A stretch of 36,911 nt of DNA. Origin: a virus. The notes under the pieces are model-generated. The model ran no database searches. It was not told the DNA's origin and saw only the letters and a list, made by a program, of their open reading frames with translations. A program made the translations under genes and the position numbers. Below are positions 2,242 through 36,031 of the stretch, in pieces. The DNA lies in the IMG/VR virus record IMGVR_UViG_3300042558_002149, positions 1 to 36,911 of that record, one strand, 5' to 3'. Position 1 is the first letter of the stretch; the number at the start of each line of letters is the position of its first letter.

Positions 2242-2648
2242 GACAGTGGACAGATCGCAGCCTGACCAACCTGCACGGGGTACACTCTGACCTCCGCCGG
2301 GTCATGGACCGGGCGCTGCAGGAGGCACCGTTTGCCTTTGTCGTGACCGAAGGTCTGCGCACGCTCGCCCGGCAGAGAGAGCTTGTCAGGATCGGTGCGT
2401 CCAAGACGCTGGAGTCCCGGCACCTCACCGGCCACGCTGTCGATCTGGTGCCCTATGTGGACATCGACAAGGATGGCAGGGTCGAGGTCGAGGAGATGTA
2501 CGCGTGGCCGCTGTACCACAAGCTCGCGCCGGCCATCAAGGCTGCTGCAGCCAACGAGAAGGTCGCCCTCGTATGGGGCGGAGACTGGCGCAGCTTCAAG
2601 GACGGCCCGCATTGGGAACTGGATCGCCGGGTCTATCCGGCAAAATGA
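2238..2648 (+). CDS. Endolysin, M15 peptidase with EF-hand-like loop
   Basis: This encodes 136 aa. The ATG overlapping the upstream stop is preferred over an upstream start in the same frame. Residues 60-69 (SRHLTGHAVD) match the SxHxxGxAxD zinc motif of M15 peptidases, with H62 and D69 as ligands. WGGDW (113-117) and the final ligand H125 in PHWEL complete the site. The family cleaves the peptide part of peptidoglycan, either L-Ala-D-Glu or D-Ala-D-Ala; the exact bond cannot be decided here. Between the first ligands and WGGDW sits DIDKDGRVEVEE (75-86), a textbook EF-hand loop with acidic residues at positions 1, 3 and 5, Gly at 6 and Glu at 12. The endolysin of phage T5 is a calcium-dependent M15 enzyme with an analogous loop. 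There is no signal peptide, so export would depend on the adjacent holin. Confidence 0.93.
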   Translation: MRQWTDRSLTNLHGVHSDLRRVMDRALQEAPFAFVVTEGLRTLARQRELVRIGASKTLESRHLTGHAVDLVPYVDIDKDGRVEVEEMYAWPLYHKLAPAIKAAAANEKVALVWGGDWRSFKDGPHWELDRRVYPAK

Positions 2649-2658
2649 GGAGAAGATC

Positions 2659-2829
2659 ATGACTGGTGAACAAATCGCAGGCGTCGTTCGCGCTATCGTT
2701 GCTGCTCTTGGTGGGTACTTTGTCGGCCAAGGTGTGACTGATGCCGAGACGGTCGCTACCGTCGGCGGCGCCGCCGCCACGCTGGCCGCTGCTCTCTGGT
2801 CGATCTACGCCAAGCGCAAGGCCGAGTGA
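2659..2829 (+). CDS. Holin, small two-TM protein
   Basis: This encodes 56 aa. The start ATG at 2659 follows a GAGGAGAAG ribosome binding site; the frame is open further upstream but overlaps the endolysin. Two hydrophobic segments are visible, at residues 6-25 (IAGVVRAIVAALGGYFVGQG) and 33-50 (ATVGGAAATLAAALWSIY), joined by a short polar turn and ending in a basic tail (AKRKAE). Size, topology and position right after the endolysin fit a class II-like holin that permeabilises the inner membrane. Its TGA overlaps the start of the i-spanin gene (TGATG at 2827-2831). Confidence 0.88.
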   Translation: MTGEQIAGVVRAIVAALGGYFVGQGVTDAETVATVGGAAATLAAALWSIYAKRKAE

Positions 2830-3053
2830 TGGTCTGGCGGGTACTCCTCTCGCTGCTCTTGGCTCCGCTTGCCCTAGCGGCGAGCTGGTTTGGTGGCAGG
2901 AAGTTGGCCCAGACTGACGCCAAGCTGGAGGTAGCCCTGCATAATCTGAAGGTCGTACGCGCAGCAGAGGAGATCGAGGATGAAGTGGAAGTTCTTAGCC
3001 CTGATGCCCTTAGGACTAGGGCTCGTGTCTGGGTGCGCAAGCCCGACAGATGA
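2829..3053 (+). CDS. i-spanin (Rz-like), inner-membrane subunit
   Basis: This encodes 74 aa. The N-terminus is an uncleaved-type hydrophobic anchor (MVWRVLLSLLLAPLALAASW) followed by a charged, helical periplasmic part that ends in a basic stretch (RARVWVRKPDR). This is the Rz layout: an inner-membrane anchored coiled coil that pairs with a lipoprotein to fuse the inner and outer membranes at lysis. The ATG at 2829 overlaps the holin stop; a GTG one codon earlier is also possible. The 3' end overlaps the o-spanin gene by 74 nt in another frame, the classical embedded Rz/Rz1 arrangement. It is short for an Rz, so the periplasmic reach must come largely from the partner. Confidence 0.82.
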   Translation: MVWRVLLSLLLAPLALAASWFGGRKLAQTDAKLEVALHNLKVVRAAEEIEDEVEVLSPDALRTRARVWVRKPDR

Positions 3054-22968: not shown

Positions 22969-25515
22969 TCACTCCTTTCCCATCTGGGCTATCAGGTCCA
23001 GCAGCACACCCTGTAGCTTCTGCTTATTCTGCAGTCGCTCATAGATGCGGTGCTCTACCTCGGTTGCTTCTATATGAACTACGTTCGACACATGTCTCTT
23101 ACCGATGCGTTCGACGCGGCCATTCGCTTGAACATACTGTTCGTTACTGGTTATAGGTCCGTACCATACAACGGTTGACGCTGCTGTCAAGGTCAATCCA
23201 TGCGCCATTGTTGCAGGATGTGCGATAAGTATGCGCGGGTCACGCGCGTTCTGAAAGTTGTGGAAGATGTCGTTGCGCTTGGATGACGACACCTCACCGT
23301 TGACGACGGCCACGGTCCAGTGCTTGGACAGCTCACGCTCCAGCATGCGCAGCGTGCCGGTCAGCGGGACGAACAGGATGACCTTCTCCCCTGCCTCCTC
23401 GATGACCTCCTTGACCGCGTTGATGCGTGGCGCGCAGTCCAGCTCCAGTCTCTCGCCGTGCTCGCCGTAGGCCACGCCCAGTGCGATCTGAATGAGCTTC
23501 TGCGCCTTGACCGCCTCGTTGACCGCCGTGATCGTGCCGCCCGCAACCTCGGTGACCAGCTGCTTGACCATCTGCTTGTAGTGCTTGGTCTGCTCTGCGG
23601 TCATCTCCACCTTGCGGGTCTGGATGACGGTGTCCGGCAGGTCCAGACAGTCCTCCCGGGTGAAGCGGATGGATGGCTGGAGCACGTGCTTCACAATATC
23701 CACGCTGTCCGGGCGGGGCACAAACTTCCACTGGCCGATCTTGGTCATGACCTGCTCTCGGAAACCTGTGTAGCTCTTGGACATGTGCGGGCTGTTGACC
23801 AGCTTGGCCAGTGCCCATGCGTCCGTCGGCTCGTTGGGGGTGGGGGTGCCGGTCATCAGCCACAGGTTCAGGTCGGGCTGCACCTGCAGCCAGCGGTAGA
23901 ACTGTTTGAACCGCCGGGTCGACGGGTTCCTGTAGACCGCTGCCTCGTCGATGATGACGAGGTCGAACTTGTCCAGCGCCTCCTTGGCGATGATCGGGAA
24001 GCCATCGTGGTTGATGATGTAGAAGTCCGCCTCGGTGTTCAGCATCTTGATGCGCCGCTTGGCATCGCCATAGAGGGTGACCGACTTACGGTGGTAGAAC
24101 TCCTTGAACACGGCGTCGCCCCACACACGTTCCAGCGTGGACAGCGGCGACAGGATCAGCACCTTCTTGATGACGCCAGCATTCATGAGGAAGTCGGCCG
24201 CCCACAAGGCGCTGACCGTCTTGCCTGTGTTGCCCGTGGCGAAGATGCACCCGTTGCGCCGCAAGATCAGGTACGTGCTCGGCACCATGAAGCAGTACTT
24301 GAAGCCGTCCGTGGATGGGACGCACTCCATAGAACGCAGGCGTCGGCCACCCGTGGCCCCTAGAATGCCTACGCTGCCGCGCTTGGTGGTACTCACGCCC
24401 ACCACGTACTCGATCGCGCTGCGTTCCTTCCTCTCGTAGGTCTGCAGCCGCGCGGTGTAGCCGCACGCAGCGAAGGCGTACTGGACGAAGTCCGCGCTCT
24501 CCTTGGTAGAGGTGAAGAACTCCACCCGCGGCTTGTTCTCCCGCACAGTCCCGTCCCAGTGCGGCACTTCATCGGCGATGACCCGCAGCTGGTGTAGCGT
24601 AGCCTGCCAGAATTGTGGCCCGAACACCTTGGTTCTGAGCGGCGGCATGAAGGACAACTTGTGAAACCCTTCGGGGGCACACTCCCTGTAGCTGTACGGG
24701 ATGTGGGCAGCATCCAGCAAGTCGCGCAGCCTGTCCTTCTTGCGCTGCTTTTTGACGCGGACATAGCAAAGGTTGCCGCCTTCCGGGATATACCCATCAG
24801 CGATCGCTGCCACCATCACACGCAACTGTGCGTCGGTCAGCGACAGCCCGACCCCGCCCGGCACGGCGAATGTCGTAGGGATGGCAGCGTCCGAGAACCC
24901 GACCCGGTCTGCGGACTTCTGCACCCGGTCGCCGCCAACCCAAGCATCATGGCGGTGCAGGAGCTCCACGGCCGTCGTAGTTTCGACCTTGGCCGCATTC
25001 GTCTTGGACTGCAGCAGCACCCTGTGCTCTGGCGACAGCATCTGATCGATACCATAGCGGGTCTTCAGCCTGACCATGGTGTCGCATGGCAGCTTTACGA
25101 ATTGCGGCTCGGCAACAAAGTCAATCCGCTTGGTGTCTGGCCAGTACTGCGCCACCGCCCCACCTTCGTAGTCGGCAATACGCTGCCACCCTGTCGGAGA
25201 CAGGTACTCCGTATCCGCGTCCACGCAGCCAATCGAGTTCAGCACAAGGCAGCGCTTGTGCAGAGTAAGGAAGTCGGCCGTGGATTTCTGGTGGTCGTAG
25301 GGTGTGAACTGCCCGGGCCAGTCGTACTGGTAGCCGATGGGCGACGGCGGGTTGAACCCCAGCTCCTTGAGGCGCTGCATCTCCGGCACACGGTGCGGGA
25401 TCACGACGATATTAGGGTCAGACGGCAGTTGCCGCGACTTGGGTATGCACTCTAGGACCCTGTTGGGGTCATTCAGTTTGAGGGCTACGGCCCTCGCGGA
25501 CTCGACGACAAGCAT
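22969..25515 (-). CDS. SNF2/DEAD-type helicase interrupted by an intein
   Basis: The ORF is 848 aa, predicted to become 515 aa after splicing. The extein is a superfamily 2 helicase of SNF2 type: FTPYDHQKSTADFL (Q-like motif), Walker A NSIG plus TGKT rejoined after splicing, VIIDEAA (motif II), LMTGTP (motif III) and ANGRVERIGKR (motif VI). The intein sits at residues 97-429, exactly between G96 and T430 of the Walker A loop, so the unspliced protein cannot bind ATP normally. Phage SNF2-like helicases of this size are associated with replication or recombination. ATG 25515 overlaps the 3' end of the VRR-NUC gene by 47 bp and has an AAGGGA site. Confidence 0.9.
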   Translation of the reverse strand: MLVVESARAVALKLNDPNRVLECIPKSRQLPSDPNIVVIPHRVPEMQRLKELGFNPPSPIGYQYDWPGQFTPYDHQKSTADFLTLHKRCLVLNSIGCVDADTEYLSPTGWQRIADYEGGAVAQYWPDTKRIDFVAEPQFVKLPCDTMVRLKTRYGIDQMLSPEHRVLLQSKTNAAKVETTTAVELLHRHDAWVGGDRVQKSADRVGFSDAAIPTTFAVPGGVGLSLTDAQLRVMVAAIADGYIPEGGNLCYVRVKKQRKKDRLRDLLDAAHIPYSYRECAPEGFHKLSFMPPLRTKVFGPQFWQATLHQLRVIADEVPHWDGTVRENKPRVEFFTSTKESADFVQYAFAACGYTARLQTYERKERSAIEYVVGVSTTKRGSVGILGATGGRRLRSMECVPSTDGFKYCFMVPSTYLILRRNGCIFATGNTGKTVSALWAADFLMNAGVIKKVLILSPLSTLERVWGDAVFKEFYHRKSVTLYGDAKRRIKMLNTEADFYIINHDGFPIIAKEALDKFDLVIIDEAAVYRNPSTRRFKQFYRWLQVQPDLNLWLMTGTPTPNEPTDAWALAKLVNSPHMSKSYTGFREQVMTKIGQWKFVPRPDSVDIVKHVLQPSIRFTREDCLDLPDTVIQTRKVEMTAEQTKHYKQMVKQLVTEVAGGTITAVNEAVKAQKLIQIALGVAYGEHGERLELDCAPRINAVKEVIEEAGEKVILFVPLTGTLRMLERELSKHWTVAVVNGEVSSSKRNDIFHNFQNARDPRILIAHPATMAHGLTLTAASTVVWYGPITSNEQYVQANGRVERIGKRHVSNVVHIEATEVEHRIYERLQNKQKLQGVLLDLIAQMGKE
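24229..25227 (-). mobile_element. Intein 1 (333 aa) in helicase Walker A, with LAGLIDADG-like endonuclease
   Basis: It begins at C1 (CVDADTEYLSPTGWQRI, block A), has block B-like LSPEHRVLL and ends with GCIFATGN followed by extein Thr. Between the splicing blocks lie VMVAAIADGYI and VIADEVPHWDGT, two degenerate LAGLIDADG motifs typical of a DOD homing endonuclease. The penultimate residue is Gly rather than the usual His, so asparagine cyclisation must be supported differently. The insertion point is the ATP-binding loop, a favoured conserved homing site. Confidence 0.9.
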
Positions 25516-26493: not shown

Positions 26494-26719
26494 CACGTGT
26501 CTCCATAGGTGTAAGCCGTGCCTGCCTCGCAGGCCACGGGCAGGTCGGGTGCCCAAGTCATGGCTTGCCCTTTGCCGGTCTGCAGTTAATCGGATACGGA
26601 CACCTTCCAGCCGCCGCATTCCAGCCGCAGACGCAGATTTTCTTTGTGGTCATCACGTGTCTCCATAGGTGTAAGCCGTGCCTGCCTCGCAGGCCACGGG
26701 CAGGTCGGGCGCCCAAGTC
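26486..26719 (-). repeat. 74-bp direct repeat: duplicated 3' end of the polymerase gene
   Basis: Copies at 26486-26559 and 26646-26719 are identical except for one base (26550/26710). The upstream copy is the real polymerase C-terminus (APDLPVACEAGTAYTYGDT and stop) plus the first bases of the next ATG. The second copy, 160 bp downstream, is the same tail without a gene in front and now provides the GGAG site and start codon of the nuclease gene. The single difference is silent in the polymerase frame (GCG versus GCA, Ala). Confidence 0.95.
26558..26653 (-). CDS. 31-aa Cys-rich protein between polymerase and nuclease
   Basis: This short ORF begins at ATG 26653, whose A is shared with the polymerase TGA (TGATG), and stops at 26560-26558. 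The sequence includes KKICVCGWNAAAGRCPYPIN: cysteines at 7, 9, 18 and 24 in a spacing suited to metal binding, followed by a basic tail. It starts with MTTK, as does the downstream nuclease. It lies exactly between the two copies of the 74-bp repeat. Stop-start overlap with the polymerase supports translation; the short length leaves doubt. Confidence 0.55.
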   Translation of the reverse strand: MTTKKICVCGWNAAAGRCPYPINCRPAKGKP

Positions 26720-29364
26720 GGGGCGGTGGACATGATGGCCACGATGTCCTTCTCCGCCTGCTCGGCCTGATCCTCTGGCACGATGCAGACGTTCTCGTCG
26801 TGGACTTGGAAGGCGACGTGATACCCGGCGTCCCTGATCGCCAGCATCTGCTCGGCCACGACAATGCGGGCCAGCGCCTGAGTGCAGTTGTGCACTACGA
26901 AAGGTCCCGAAGAACCTCGGACCACGAAGCGAGAGTTGGGTCCGGCGTTGCGGAGGTCATAGACAGGTTCCGCTGCCACCGATAGAACAACGTCGACTTC
27001 GGCACGCCCGTCAGTCTGTGTGCTCTGGTAAGGTCCACGGGTAGAGCCCCGCGCCTGTTCCCAGCCTGCACGGTGTAGGATGTCCAGCGACAGTTCCCGG
27101 GTGTGTAGTCCCCGTTGTTGTCCTTCCGGTCCAGTGTCAGACCCGACTGGTAGGTGGGGCCCATGTCCCCCCAGAACGCCGCGAAGGAGGCATCCCACTC
27201 CGGGCATACTCTGATCCCGCGTGCTCCATAGTTGCGCCACGCTTGGTGTGAGGGTAGCCGGCACCGGTCCCGCATCGAGCGCCATACCCAGTAGGCCGGG
27301 TGATTGGCCATGCCGTGAGTCTTGTTCGCCGCCGCCATCATGCAGCCACACGAGGAACTCCCGCCACGCTGTGCCCACTTTTCCACACCACTGGCTACGC
27401 GCGTCACCTCCGTCCCGCATATGCACCGGAATACCCACAGCGAACGGCGACCGTTCGTGCCCTGATACCGTACTCCCGTCAGGTAACCAAAAGTCTGACC
27501 TGTATAGTCCTTCGCACGATGATGCACGGCGCCACCCTTTCTCGGTTAGGACCTCATGGTCCGGGGTCATGCGGACCCCATCGAGTTTGGTAGTAGACTG
27601 TTCGCCTTGACTAATCAACCCGTCATGCTGCACCCATTGCACGCCGTCCCAAAGCCGGTCATCAGTCAGCACGTCCACAATCGGGACCCATCCCCGCTGG
27701 GTAAGTACTTGCGTGTCGCCAGCCAAACAGTTCTCCGCCACCATCGCGCCATAGATGCGGCTCTGGCCGGGGATCGTGCCGCTGTCCGCGTCCTTCGGGT
27801 CGCCGGCCAGCCGAGCCTTCATGGCTCTGTCAAACATGCGCCTGTCTTGGATGTAGGTGAACTGCCGGGTGGCGGCCGTGAGCCCGTGGTACTGCAGCCG
27901 CATGCCGTTGGGCAGGAGGATGCCATCGGCGTCATAGGTCAGGATGTTACCGATCCGCCCCCTGCGCCCAGCCGCCATGCTGGACAGGGCGTAGCCACAC
28001 TCACCCCACAGCTTCACGATCTGGTGGTAGCCTGTACGGTACGTGCGCACCAGACGGTCGACGTCCTCCTCGGGGATGTCCACAGGTGGCTTGCCGCGCT
28101 TCAGGGTCAGCTGAAACTTCTCTGCCGACATGCCGTAGCCCAGCCCAAGGATGGCGGACTTGCCGACGTGGCGCTCCAGCTTGTCGGCCTTGGTCACCTT
28201 ACGGCCATAGAAGACCGTGGCGAACTCGGAGTACACGTCCCGCCCCTCGCGGAACCATTGCACAAGGTCGCTCTGCCCGGCGAGGTAGGCCACCATGCGC
28301 GCCTCGATCTGGCTGCTGTCACAGCTGATGATCTTGTGCCCCTCGGGGGCCCGAAGGGCTTGGCGCAGCGCACCACCACGGGGCAGGTTCTGGAGGTTCA
28401 TCTTGTCGCCACCAGAGAAGCGGCCAGTGTGCGCGCCATAGTAGTTGAGCATGATGGGCAGCCGGCCACGGCCAGCCACTCCGATCAGGGAGGAGGTGCG
28501 CGTCTCCTCCAGCGTGGACTTGAGCCCAAGCCGTGCGGCCACCAGTGTCTGGACCACGGGGTTGTGGTGATCCTGCAGCGCGAGGAAGTCGAGGTCTGTC
28601 TTGGCGAAGGCGAAGGCTTCCTTGCCAGTGGTGCCGCTGATCTTGGTTGGTGGCTCTACCCCGCAGCGGCGCAGCAGCTTGGCGAACTTGTCGTTGGACA
28701 TGAGGATGTCCTTGCCCTTGCCTCCAAGGGTGTCGAGCAGGGCCTGCTTCTCTGCCTGCACCACTACAAGGTGTGCCTCCAGCTTGTCCACGTCCAGCTC
28801 CACCGTCGGCTCGGTGTACATCCGGAGCGTGCTGTCGATGATCCGGAGCTCAGATACCGGGAACCCTTTGCGCAGCTTCTTGAACAGGGCGTAGGTCAGG
28901 TCCACGTCGTTGGCGCAGTACCTCATGTAGGCCGCAAGTTCTGCAGAGCCGAAGTCCCTGCGCCGTTTGCCGATCGCGAGGATGACCTCCTCGCCCTTCT
29001 GGCCCAACTCATAGTGCTGGGCCAATGCCTTGAGGCTACCACCCACAGTGGACTGGTGCTTGGGTCGTGCCATGGATAGCGTGTCGAGCCAGAGCTTGGG
29101 CTTGATACCGAAGTGCCACGACAGGATGGCGCCGTCGAACAGGGTGTTGTGGCAGAGGATCGCCTTGTCGCTGTAGTCGAGCGACTTGAGGAACTTGCCC
29201 GGGTTGTCCCCGGTGTAGGTATCTACTGGCCCGTCGTTGACCTTGACGCCCACGCCGATGACCTCGAACAGAGGTGACCGGACATACGATTCTGTTGTGA
29301 TCTTAGACAGGGAGTAATCCCTGTCGTAGTATGTCTCAAAGTCGATAGTAACTATGTCCATCAT
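26653..29364 (-). CDS. Family A DNA polymerase with 3'-5' exonuclease, interrupted by an intein
   Basis: The ORF is 903 aa, predicted 622 aa after splicing. Exonuclease motifs: DFETYYD (D8, E10), CHNTLFDGA (D77) and YCANDVD (Y149, D153). Polymerase motifs: A, CDSSQIEARM (D349, E354); B, RHVGKSAILGLGYG (R398, K402, Y410); C, QVHDE (H855-E857). The intein occupies residues 546-826, between AEN and CTQALAR, in the conserved helix ahead of motif C. Motif A has Ser at the position after Asp where many family A enzymes have Tyr. It is the phage replicative polymerase. Its start overlaps the upstream gene's stop (ATGA), and its stop overlaps the mini-ORF start. Confidence 0.95.
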   Translation of the reverse strand: MMDIVTIDFETYYDRDYSLSKITTESYVRSPLFEVIGVGVKVNDGPVDTYTGDNPGKFLKSLDYSDKAILCHNTLFDGAILSWHFGIKPKLWLDTLSMARPKHQSTVGGSLKALAQHYELGQKGEEVILAIGKRRRDFGSAELAAYMRYCANDVDLTYALFKKLRKGFPVSELRIIDSTLRMYTEPTVELDVDKLEAHLVVVQAEKQALLDTLGGKGKDILMSNDKFAKLLRRCGVEPPTKISGTTGKEAFAFAKTDLDFLALQDHHNPVVQTLVAARLGLKSTLEETRTSSLIGVAGRGRLPIMLNYYGAHTGRFSGGDKMNLQNLPRGGALRQALRAPEGHKIISCDSSQIEARMVAYLAGQSDLVQWFREGRDVYSEFATVFYGRKVTKADKLERHVGKSAILGLGYGMSAEKFQLTLKRGKPPVDIPEEDVDRLVRTYRTGYHQIVKLWGECGYALSSMAAGRRGRIGNILTYDADGILLPNGMRLQYHGLTAATRQFTYIQDRRMFDRAMKARLAGDPKDADSGTIPGQSRIYGAMVAENCLAGDTQVLTQRGWVPIVDVLTDDRLWDGVQWVQHDGLISQGEQSTTKLDGVRMTPDHEVLTEKGWRRASSCEGLYRSDFWLPDGSTVSGHERSPFAVGIPVHMRDGGDARSQWCGKVGTAWREFLVWLHDGGGEQDSRHGQSPGLLGMALDAGPVPATLTPSVAQLWSTRDQSMPGVGCLLRGVLGGHGPHLPVGSDTGPEGQQRGLHTRELSLDILHRAGWEQARGSTRGPYQSTQTDGRAEVDVVLSVAAEPVYDLRNAGPNSRFVVRGSSGPFVVHNCTQALARIVVAEQMLAIRDAGYHVAFQVHDENVCIVPEDQAEQAEKDIVAIMSTAPTWAPDLPVACEAGTAYTYGDT
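26887..27729 (-). mobile_element. Intein 2 (281 aa) in DNA polymerase
   Basis: C1 starts block A (CLAGDTQVLTQRGWVPI); block B is MTPDHEVLTEKGW with the conserved TxxH; block F is EPVYDLRNAGPNSRFVV; block G is PFVVHN followed by Cys. All splicing residues (C1, block B His, penultimate His, final Asn, +1 Cys) are present, so it should splice. No endonuclease motif is visible in this frame between about residues 75 and 240; that segment is Gly-rich and odd in composition. An intact HNH endonuclease is encoded over the same DNA in the +1 frame. Confidence 0.92.
26895..27527 (-). CDS. HNH homing endonuclease nested in intein 2 in the +1 frame
   Basis: This encodes 210 aa from GTG 27527 with an AGGGTGG ribosome-binding-like site five bases upstream. 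Domain order: N-terminal zinc-ribbon-like part (DYTGQTFGYLTGVRY, with C35, C37, C60, C62); HNH core at about 75-160 (YWVWRSMRDRCR; GARGIRVCPEW; LDRKDNNGDYTPGNCRW; AGNRR); C-terminal helix-turn-helix at about 165-188 (AHRLTGVPKSTLFYRWQ). The core and final HTH match the free-standing HNH protein at 35433-35972. The whole ORF lies inside the polymerase intein and overlaps its C-terminal splicing blocks; the stop is five codons before the intein end. It would cut intein-less polymerase alleles to drive homing. Whether it is translated independently is inferred. Confidence 0.85.
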   Translation of the reverse strand: MHHRAKDYTGQTFGYLTGVRYQGTNGRRSLWVFRCICGTEVTRVASGVEKWAQRGGSSSCGCMMAAANKTHGMANHPAYWVWRSMRDRCRLPSHQAWRNYGARGIRVCPEWDASFAAFWGDMGPTYQSGLTLDRKDNNGDYTPGNCRWTSYTVQAGNRRGALPVDLTRAHRLTGVPKSTLFYRWQRNLSMTSATPDPTLASWSEVLRDLS

Positions 29365-35442: not shown

Positions 35443-35972
35443 GTCGTGTTTCCTTTTCTGTATCTATAATAGAGGGTTGATCGTTTGATGCCGGTGCGCC
35501 GCACGGCTTCCTTGATAGACAGTTGCTCTCCGTCCACTTCGATGGAAAACTCGGGTCGCTTTGTTGGCCTGCGACCTGCGTCAAACAACTCTGGTGGTGT
35601 GACCCCGTGGTCAGCCCTATGCCGGAGCATTGTGTAAGACAGGCCCAGTTCTTTTGCCCACTTCGCAAGCGGTTGCGTCTTGCCATTGTGTGTAAAGCAC
35701 CGGTTAGGCCTACGGTTGTGGGCTTGTTCCTCAGGGGTTGCCCAACGGACATTGTCAGAGGAGTACCCTTTCGCATTGTCTATGCGGTCCAGTGTGTGGG
35801 TAGGGGACGGCGGATACCCCACGTCCTTGGCGAACGCATCGAAAGAACCTACCCAAGTCGGACACATAGAGATGCCGCGGCCGCCGTATAGGTGGTAGCC
35901 TGTGTTCCTAGGGTTAAAGCACCGCTGCTTGATGTTGCACCAGCGTTGGTAGAGCGGGTCGGTCTTTCGCAT
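35433..35972 (-). CDS. Free-standing HNH homing endonuclease
   Basis: This encodes 179 aa with a strong AGGAGG site eight bases before ATG 35972. The HNH core occupies residues 7-90: LYQRWCNIKQRCFNP, GGRGISMCPTW, LDRIDNAKGYSSDNVRWAT and EEQAHNRR. Two HTH-like segments follow (about 97-120 and 150-173), the second (AVRRTGIKRSTLYYRYRKG) closely resembling the end of the nested HNH in the polymerase intein. It separates the MoxR and DUF3150-like genes, as expected for an intergenic homing insertion, and its local base composition is less GC-rich than its neighbours. Confidence 0.92.
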   Translation of the reverse strand: MRKTDPLYQRWCNIKQRCFNPRNTGYHLYGGRGISMCPTWVGSFDAFAKDVGYPPSPTHTLDRIDNAKGYSSDNVRWATPEEQAHNRRPNRCFTHNGKTQPLAKWAKELGLSYTMLRHRADHGVTPPELFDAGRRPTKRPEFSIEVDGEQLSIKEAVRRTGIKRSTLYYRYRKGNTTCS

Positions 35973-36031
35973 TGAGGTATCCTCCTGTTACATATAACAT
36001 ACTTAACAGCTAGTTTAGAGCAGTGCAACAC
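35973..36031 (-). other. AT-rich intergenic leader of the HNH gene
   Basis: This 59-bp gap between MoxR and HNH genes is unusually AT-rich (TATGTTATATG) and carries the AGGAGG site. It also includes GTTACATATAAC, an imperfect inverted repeat. It could hold a promoter, but no convincing -35/-10 pair stands out. Confidence 0.35.

Follow-up and report, generated by a model that had tools for sequence, protein, structure and literature searches.

Canonical inteins combine a Hint domain and an in-frame endonuclease within one intein, and in some split inteins the endonuclease gene appears instead to lie between the two halves and to be made as a separate protein (Dassa et al. 2009). An out-of-frame arrangement has been reported for the ShiLan domain and the Pacc40 insertion, in which an HNH gene with a GTG start lies in a shifted frame of an insertion in a phage methylase gene, the host frame has no stops, and the distribution is disjunct (PMC11855218). 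Those insertions have no splicing domains, and the authors expect them to stay in the protein. In a literature survey in which most papers were judged by title and abstract (PMC7765530, PMC8966425, PMC3229294, and PMC12613952 were among those consulted), we recognized none describing an out-of-frame endonuclease inside an intein, although a preprint on Actinobacteriophage inteins with non-canonical architecture (10.1101/2025.01.02.630785) and Gorbalenya 1998, both cited in PMC11855218 for overlapping frames, may do so. Here we describe a phage polA intein, with many relatives, in which the HNH endonuclease that probably spreads the intein is encoded in a shifted frame of the intein's own DNA.

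An HNH gene lies in the +1 frame of a polA intein

We analyzed the whole of a 36,911-nt stretch of viral DNA (IMG/VR record IMGVR_UViG_3300042558_002149, positions 1 to 36,911), referred to below as the window. The original prediction was that an HNH gene with its own GTG start and Shine-Dalgarno-like site is nested out of frame in a continuous polymerase intein. We confirmed both the coordinates and the frame relation. The HNH gene lies wholly inside the intein, and its stop codon ends 8 nt before the intein does.

Table 1. Features of the polA intein locus (window coordinates)
Position (strand)	Feature	Size	Basis
26653-29364 (-)	Family-A DNA polymerase precursor (exo and pol domains) interrupted by the intein	903 aa	Pfam DNA_pol_A E=3.7e-29 and DNA_pol_A_exo1 E=1.1e-6; PHROG DNA polymerase E=3.7e-89
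26887-27729 (-)	Intein, polymerase residues 546-826, between ...VAEN and CTQA...; Cys1 ... His-Asn, then Cys+1	281 aa	Profile of 56 inteins hits the PI-MtuI mini-intein, E=1.2e-5; model matches mini-inteins; intein-free alleles lack exactly this stretch
27451-27729 (-)	Hint N-terminal part, intein residues 1-93, with TPDH block B		pLDDT 84-98 over residues 1-90 in blocks of ten; C1, T55, and H58 invariant in 56 inteins
26989-27450 (-)	Intein-frame linker, residues 94-247, predicted disordered; shifted-frame reading of the HNH gene		pLDDT below 50 over nearly all of it; little conservation beyond the HNH constraint
26887-26988 (-)	Hint C-terminal part, residues 248-281, ending VHN before Cys+1		pLDDT 91-96 over residues 251-281; D258, G263, F268, H280, and N281 invariant in 56 inteins
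26895-27527 (-)	HNH endonuclease gene, +1 frame, GTG start; cysteine-bearing N-part, HNH core, C-terminal HTH-like part	210 aa	PHROG phrog_374 "HNH endonuclease" E=3.7e-51; pLDDT 90.4, pTM 0.59; nested in 76 distinct relatives
27477-27527 (-)	Dual-coded stretch; also encodes the Hint segment after GW (AS..RLPDG in relatives)	17 HNH codons	Polymerase-frame conservation far above the synonymous-shuffle null, z=27.6 (third frame z=12.0); aligns with PI-MtuI residues after block B
27532-27540 (-)	Shine-Dalgarno-like AAAGGGTGG 5' of GTG 27527		-6.3 kcal/mol with the anti-SD
27546-27548 (-)	HNH-frame stop codon (TAA) just upstream of the HNH start

A long open reading frame alone means little here, since there were 212 ORFs of 60 aa or more. 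We shuffled the synonymous codons of the window HNH gene, which gave 4.2 polymerase-frame stops on average and none in 0.4% of shuffles. We then extended the test to 76 distinct nested HNH sequences (from 66 viral contigs, 5 named phages, and 5 bacterial contigs) and found 0 polymerase-frame stops against 467 expected, while the third frame had 887 against 854. In 25 non-nested relatives the same frame had 227 stops against 247 expected. A sequencing indel or a chance ORF was rejected on this basis. The 76 sequences were found through HNH similarity, but a search with the Hint part alone, which is not conditioned on an HNH, gave 79 of 80 loci with the HNH out of frame and 1 without an HNH. There were two exceptions among close relatives: locus L120, in which the polymerase frame is closed and the layout is split, and locus L129 (Arsenophonus), in which the HNH is truncated and its C-terminal part is shifted into the polymerase frame. 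L129 is among the 76 but was left out of the codon-phase and conservation analyses. A further locus first flagged as nested, L030, showed no intein in its open frame and was dropped by the score cut. A megablast search of the intein DNA against phage records gave no match.

The codon phase of substitutions switches within the intein

To determine which frame is under selection, we compared substitutions by codon position in 121 pairs (48 sequences) at 65-85% HNH identity. Frequencies at polymerase positions 1/2/3 were 0.37/0.29/0.62 in the extein and 0.26/0.18/0.55 in the Hint N-terminal part, whereas in the overlap they were 0.23/0.19/0.50 at HNH positions 1/2/3. The overlap thus follows the HNH codon phase about as strictly as the exteins follow theirs. 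This, together with retention of the HNH start, Shine-Dalgarno signal, and stop and a linker reading barely conserved in its own right, makes it very unlikely that the HNH is a dead or passenger frame in a mini-intein with a long random linker, even though HNH-free mini-inteins exist in the family (loci L134, L136, and L204).

The original prediction regarded the intein-frame translation of this segment as seemingly a by-product of the HNH code. This holds for most of it, but not for the dual-coded stretch at the start of the HNH gene. A conserved, folded intein-frame linker was not supported beyond the first ~17 and the last codons. The third frame also exceeded the null at both ends of the overlap (z 12.0 and 8.2), and the middle showed a small polymerase-frame excess (z=9.9), which shared descent could explain; because the sequences are related, p-values overstate independence.

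The HNH start carries an initiation signal

We next asked whether the HNH gene has conserved signals for its own translation. An ATG, GTG, or TTG codon lay between -24 and +15 nt of the conserved start in 75 of 76 relatives, and an HNH-frame stop lay within 45 nt upstream in 73 of 76. Mean pairing with the anti-SD was -6.95 kcal/mol at 75 starts (best candidate of each) against -1.99 at 2,268 control codons, and -7.07 for the 54 with a start at the conserved position. Much of this strength is forced by conserved Gly-Trp codons of the intein, the synonymous expectation being already -5.6, but the signal was stronger than that expectation in 48 of 62 sequences and in 39 of 48 with a single candidate start. 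A consensus scan of positions 26600-27900 found no promoter for the HNH gene.

Programmed ribosomal frameshifting from the polymerase frame, giving a polymerase-Hint-HNH fusion, would also express a +1-frame protein from one mRNA. However, the upstream stops mean that a shift would have to fall in a short span, and nearly all relatives have their own start codon with strong SD pairing, so we consider this rival improbable.

Predicted structures of the intein and the HNH protein

AlphaFold gave an ordered HNH protein and, for the intein, a Hint fold with a disordered loop. The intein model matched mini-inteins (6frg, E=1.7e-4; 7cfv, E=2.2e-4; 5i0a, E=8.7e-4), while NCBIfam intein_Nterm was hit only below its cut-off. 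A group I intron with an HNH ORF was also considered, since phage introns can probably carry HNH genes as well. The polymerase frame is open throughout, both Hint ends carry the splicing residues, and no Rfam family reached its gathering score in the window; this alternative is all but excluded.

The window HNH protein had no Pfam (E<=1) or NCBIfam (E<=0.1) hit. A zinc-ribbon-like part and an HTH, both included in the original prediction, are supported only by conserved cysteines and by weak Pfam matches in some of 63 relatives, none of them in the window protein. The profile match to I-HmuI (1u3e) was weak (E=0.013), and the residue aligned with the His of its D-H motif is Arg in this family, so the chemistry is uncertain; this substitution is also compatible with a passenger frame. 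Foldseek found no solved relative of the HNH model at E<=0.001. The top VIA row was PacI (3ldy; Z 6.5, rmsd 2.2, 75 residues), a middling match, and below the top two rows VIA listed mainly Tudor/SH3-like and kinase matches to residues 1-72.

Intein-free alleles and distribution of the nested arrangement

We looked across 80 polymerase relatives for alleles without the intein. Of these, 69 had a gap of 0 at the insertion site, 2 (L225 and L295) were called empty with an unreliable negative gap, 5 were incomplete, and 4 had intein and HNH. The nearest empty allele, L219, is 96.5% identical over the N-extein and has Val instead of Cys at +1. The flank after the insertion site is only mildly divergent (85%, while a stretch 420 nt upstream has 82%), so co-conversion rests on the Cys+1 alone.

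The arrangement is not peculiar to this phage. Of 138 related inteins, 109 carry the HNH in +1, 26 in +2, and 3 carry none; at domain E<=1e-5, 0 have it in frame. Among 24 of the +2 inteins (the first +2 intein of L109, a two-intein locus, and L120 were not included), 0 stops were seen against 82 expected. Host proteins include polymerase, helicase, and terminase.

Together, these results support the original interpretation, which passed tests it could have failed on stops, codon phase, SD strength, structure models, and start and stop codons. We consider it likely, although translation, splicing, cleavage, and homing are inferred, that this is a mobile intein whose homing endonuclease is made separately by internal initiation. 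Ribosomes reading polA would make the precursor, and the two Hint ends (about 93 + 34 residues) would fold across a disordered loop, excise the intein, and join the exteins, the loop mainly having to stay free of stops. Other ribosomes would start at the internal GTG and make the HNH protein, which would cut intein-free polA at or near the same site, so that repair from the intein-bearing copy moves intein, Cys+1, and nested HNH together.

It remains possible, but in our view doubtful, that the HNH is a homing gene of its own that settled in the intein loop as a safe harbor. Non-nested relatives are common, the same HNH family sits out of frame in the non-intein Pacc40 insertion, and an HNH-deleted derivative (L134) leaves a mini-intein with its splicing ends. 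On the other hand, an HNH is found in 135 of 138 inteins of the family and in three host proteins, which suggests that the two travel together. A Mantel test did not decide: HNH distances follow the extein about as well as the Hint part (partial r 0.43 and 0.45, 57 sequences), so joint spread is not separated from shared descent.

More broadly, and somewhat more likely than not, out-of-frame nesting may be a third general architecture for mobile inteins, beside in-frame fusion and split halves, as if fusion to the splicing protein is selected against and separate low-level synthesis is favored. It would connect mini-inteins such as L134 with split inteins such as L120. If so, these inteins also give a clean natural case of overlapping genes in which the frame under selection switches at a known codon, and a test of how internal initiation is tuned.

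Comparison with described systems

Inteins tend to be sorted into those with and without an endonuclease by reading one frame, and a published phage genome paper ruled out inteins because the endonucleases were not in the frame of the flanking genes (PMC3185647); that rule would miss this family. In Hamiltonella phage APSE-1 (NC_000935), which has the same intein and HNH family, the record already annotates a shortened HNH CDS, P46, inside the polymerase CDS P45, but that stretch carries no intein feature, and the APSE-2 (EU794049) and APSE-7 (LR794147) records list no HNH gene there. Jerseyvirus polymerases, e.g., that of Salmonella phage vB_SenS-Ent2 (HG934469), have a related intein with an HNH in +2, differing in frame offset, HNH branch, and polymerase site. 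The record annotates this intein as "encoding splicing domains" only, and that HNH is at >=80% identity in 163 of 771 phage records matched; if our reading is true, such inteins are mobile elements.

Unlike in canonical inteins, the endonuclease here is not part of the intein polypeptide. Unlike in split inteins, the polymerase gene is unbroken in the window, although L120 has the HNH, of the same family, between split-intein halves. The nearest printed precedent that we saw is the ShiLan-type insertion. The Pacc40 HNH stretch matches the HNH profile of this family (127 bits), but whereas no RBS was detectable in those insertions (PMC11855218), here there is a Shine-Dalgarno signal, and both Hint ends and the splicing residues are present.

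A 210-codon HNH frame lies within the intein of the phage DNA polymerase gene

The minus strand of the window encodes a single family-A DNA polymerase of 903 residues, of which residues 546 to 826 are an intein. Inside the intein, in the +1 frame, lies a 210-codon ORF with a GTG start that matches PHROG HNH endonuclease families (best E=3.7e-51), and its stop codon ends 8 nt before the intein does. A second, separate HNH relative (E=3.1e-17) is present in the same genome.

Coordinates of the features described in this section
Sequence	Position	Strand	Feature
Window	26653-29364	−	Family-A DNA polymerase, 903 residues
Window	26887-27729	−	Intein, polymerase residues 546-826
Window	26895-27527	−	HNH ORF, 210 codons, GTG start, +1 frame
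Window	22969-25515	−	SNF2-like helicase ORF with a second, apparent intein
Window	35706-36011	−	Second, separate HNH relative
Locus L120	3235-4432		Split-intein layout with HNH gene
Locus L134 (Streptococcus phage)	2501-3007		Mini-intein
Locus L174	1665-6335		ORF with two +1-nested inteins

Because long spurious ORFs are common in this DNA (212 ORFs of 60 aa or more), we did not rely on length to decide whether the HNH frame was more than a chance ORF. We searched with the HNH protein and with an alignment of nine nested relatives, which brought in viral contigs, named phages (APSE-1, -2, and -7, Shewanella SFCi1, and Caulobacter RW were retrieved), and bacterial contigs (two Alicyclobacillus, Paenibacillus, a Novosphingobium MAG, and Arsenophonus). 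After removal of identical HNH proteins, 77 scored as close relatives (score cut 220). Of these, 76 are nested in an open host frame with the same offset, and one, from the locus that we call L120, is not. The 76 comprise 66 from viral contigs (the window's own sequence among them), 5 from named phages, and 5 from bacterial contigs. Shuffling of synonymous HNH codons predicted 467 stops in the host frame of the 76, but none was seen. In contrast, the third frame behaved as predicted (887 stops against 854 expected), as did the same frame in 25 non-nested relatives (227 against 247). For the window alone, 4.2 stops are expected and P(0)=0.004.

The phase of purifying selection switches at the HNH start

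To determine which frame is under selection, we counted differences per codon position in pairs with 65 to 85% HNH identity (121 pairs, 48 sequences). Read in the polymerase frame, the values for positions 1/2/3 were 0.37/0.29/0.62 in the extein and 0.26/0.18/0.55 in Hint-N, whereas the overlap, read in the HNH frame, gave 0.23/0.19/0.50. HNH position 3 is polymerase position 1, and so the phase of purifying selection switches at the HNH start.

We then compared polymerase-frame residues in 66 nonredundant sequences with a synonymous-shuffle null that keeps the HNH protein. They were strongly conserved over the first 17 codons (z=27.6; third frame, 12.0), slightly over the middle 169 columns (z=9.9, a small effect; third frame, 1.8), and over the last 25 (z=9.6; third frame, 8.2). 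The null removes shared descent, and so the small excesses are not proof of constraint. The first stretch is the Hint segment after GW, which aligns with PI-MtuI, and both proteins use those codons.

Predicted structures of the two proteins

AlphaFold2, supplied with 63 nested sequences, modeled the HNH-frame protein with a mean pLDDT of 90.4 and a pTM of 0.59. With 56 sequences, the intein-frame protein (mean 62.9, pTM 0.47) had two well-predicted ends and a linker, residues 94 to 247, that lay almost wholly below 50. The intein model matches mini-inteins (6frg, E=1.7e-4). The HNH model had no Foldseek match at E<=0.001, and its top row in VIA was PacI (Z 6.5, 75 residues, rmsd 2.2), a middling score. 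The HNH profile found I-HmuI at E=0.013, with Arg aligned to the His of its D-H motif, a residue that is probably catalytic. The HNH label is therefore good at the family level, but the chemistry is uncertain. The zinc-ribbon part rests on conserved cysteines and weak matches in 4 of 63 relatives, while HTH matches occur in up to 18 of 63 per model.

Initiation signals at the HNH start

Of the 76 nested sequences, 75 have ATG, GTG, or TTG at the conserved start or within −24 to +15 nt of it, and 73 have an HNH-frame stop within 45 nt upstream, which argues for separate initiation. Shine-Dalgarno pairing averaged −6.95 kcal/mol at the 75 HNH starts (taking the best candidate of each; −7.07 for the 54 with a start at the conserved position) against −1.99 at 2,268 same-frame start-like codons in the exteins. 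The conserved Gly-Trp codons supply much of this signal, since resampling of synonymous polymerase codons gave −5.6. However, the observed value was stronger in 48 of 62 sequences and in 39 of 48 with a single candidate start. No consensus promoter was found in the interval from 26600 to 27900.

Closely related polymerase genes lack the intein

A search with 544 residues of the N-extein returned 80 loci, of which 4 have the intein with HNH, 71 were called empty, and 5 were incomplete; four loci that we added comprised three with the intein and one incomplete, giving 84. Of the 71 empty calls, 69 have an exact gap of 0, and two (L225 and L295) are unreliable. One of the empty loci, L219, is 96.5% identical to the window polymerase over the N-extein but has no intein, with GTG (Val) where the window has TGC (Cys+1). 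In the six closest empty alleles (L219 to L224), the +1 residue is Val or Ile, while more distant ones vary (Thr in L288). The 60 nt after the site are 85% identical, which is low but not the lowest stretch (82% at 420 nt upstream), and so a co-converted flank is only suggested. Presence in the window and absence in so near a relative is consistent with a gained or lost insertion. Related inteins in loci L001, L005, L038, L039, and L040 sit at slightly different codons of the same polymerase motif (before VEN, before EN, or after EN), each before Cys.

Out-of-frame HNH frames are found in related inteins with two offsets

We next searched with the Hint N-part alone, keeping the best 80 of 491 viral candidates, so that the sample leans to close relatives. 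Pooling of all retrieved loci gave 138 distinct inteins from 127 loci. The HNH is in +1 in 109, in +2 in 26, absent in 3 (152, 168, and 140 residues without Cys+1: L204, L134, and L136), and in frame in 0. In the 80 loci from the Hint search alone, which were not chosen for an HNH, the corresponding counts are 64 in +1, 15 in +2, 1 none, and 0 in frame. Since these sequences are related, 0 of 138 does not represent 138 independent events, but the two offsets, at different polymerase sites and with different HNH branches, look independent.

Leaving aside L120, whose host frame is closed, and the two-intein locus L109, the other 24 of the 26 inteins with the HNH in +2 have 0 host-frame stops against 82 expected (20 of 24 individually below P=0.05) and a third frame as predicted (291 against 304). 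Their overlap also follows the HNH phase, and 22 of 24 have a start codon at intein nt 92. They sit at the GK(V)..LGYG site of the polymerase (19 assigned by script and 5 by eye) and include Salmonella, E. coli, Pseudomonas, and Vibrio phages. A Jerseyvirus HNH query found 163 phage records at >=80% identity. Some of these carry only a polymerase, intein, or (in one case) "endonuclease" annotation at the place, and in the two records that we inspected, it is one long CDS. In Salmonella phage Ent2, that intein is annotated as splicing domains only, while its helicase intein is annotated as having LAGLIDADG. The window phage also has an apparent second intein in an SNF2-like helicase ORF, where a weak in-frame LAGLIDADG_3 match (E=0.0034, below Pfam's cutoff) suggests a conventional intein.

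Host ORFs outside polA include SNF2-like helicases (loci L156 and L199) and a terminase large subunit (L166, by PHROG only). Locus L174 has an ORF with two +1-nested inteins in a protein with only weak terminase-like matches. Several polymerases (L098, L099, L122, L171, and L190) carry two such inteins with opposite offsets, one HNH in +1 and one in +2.

Two loci give hints about the life cycle of the element. The mini-intein of L134 has a shifted frame that still reads like the start of the HNH ORF of another locus, L132, and so, by eye, it looks like an HNH-deleted derivative of the nested form. L120 has the polymerase N-half with Hint-N, followed by an HNH ORF overlapping its end and then an ATG, overlapping the HNH stop, that starts Hint-C and the C-extein, a split-intein layout.

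Comparison with known systems

The nested arrangement is confirmed, and the original prediction, that an HNH gene lies out of frame in a continuous intein and is translated separately from the splicing protein, is supported and extended, although internal translation, splicing, cleavage, and homing are inferred. A phage genome study took an out-of-frame position as ruling out an intein (PMC3185647). The nested ORF can be seen in a database record, that of APSE-1, in which P46 lies within P45. In the literature examined, we found one close precedent, the ShiLan and Pacc40 insertions (PMC11855218), in which the HNH is out of frame but there are no splicing domains, whereas the HNH described here lies within an intein. 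The Pacc40 HNH stretch matches the profile of this family with 127 bits.
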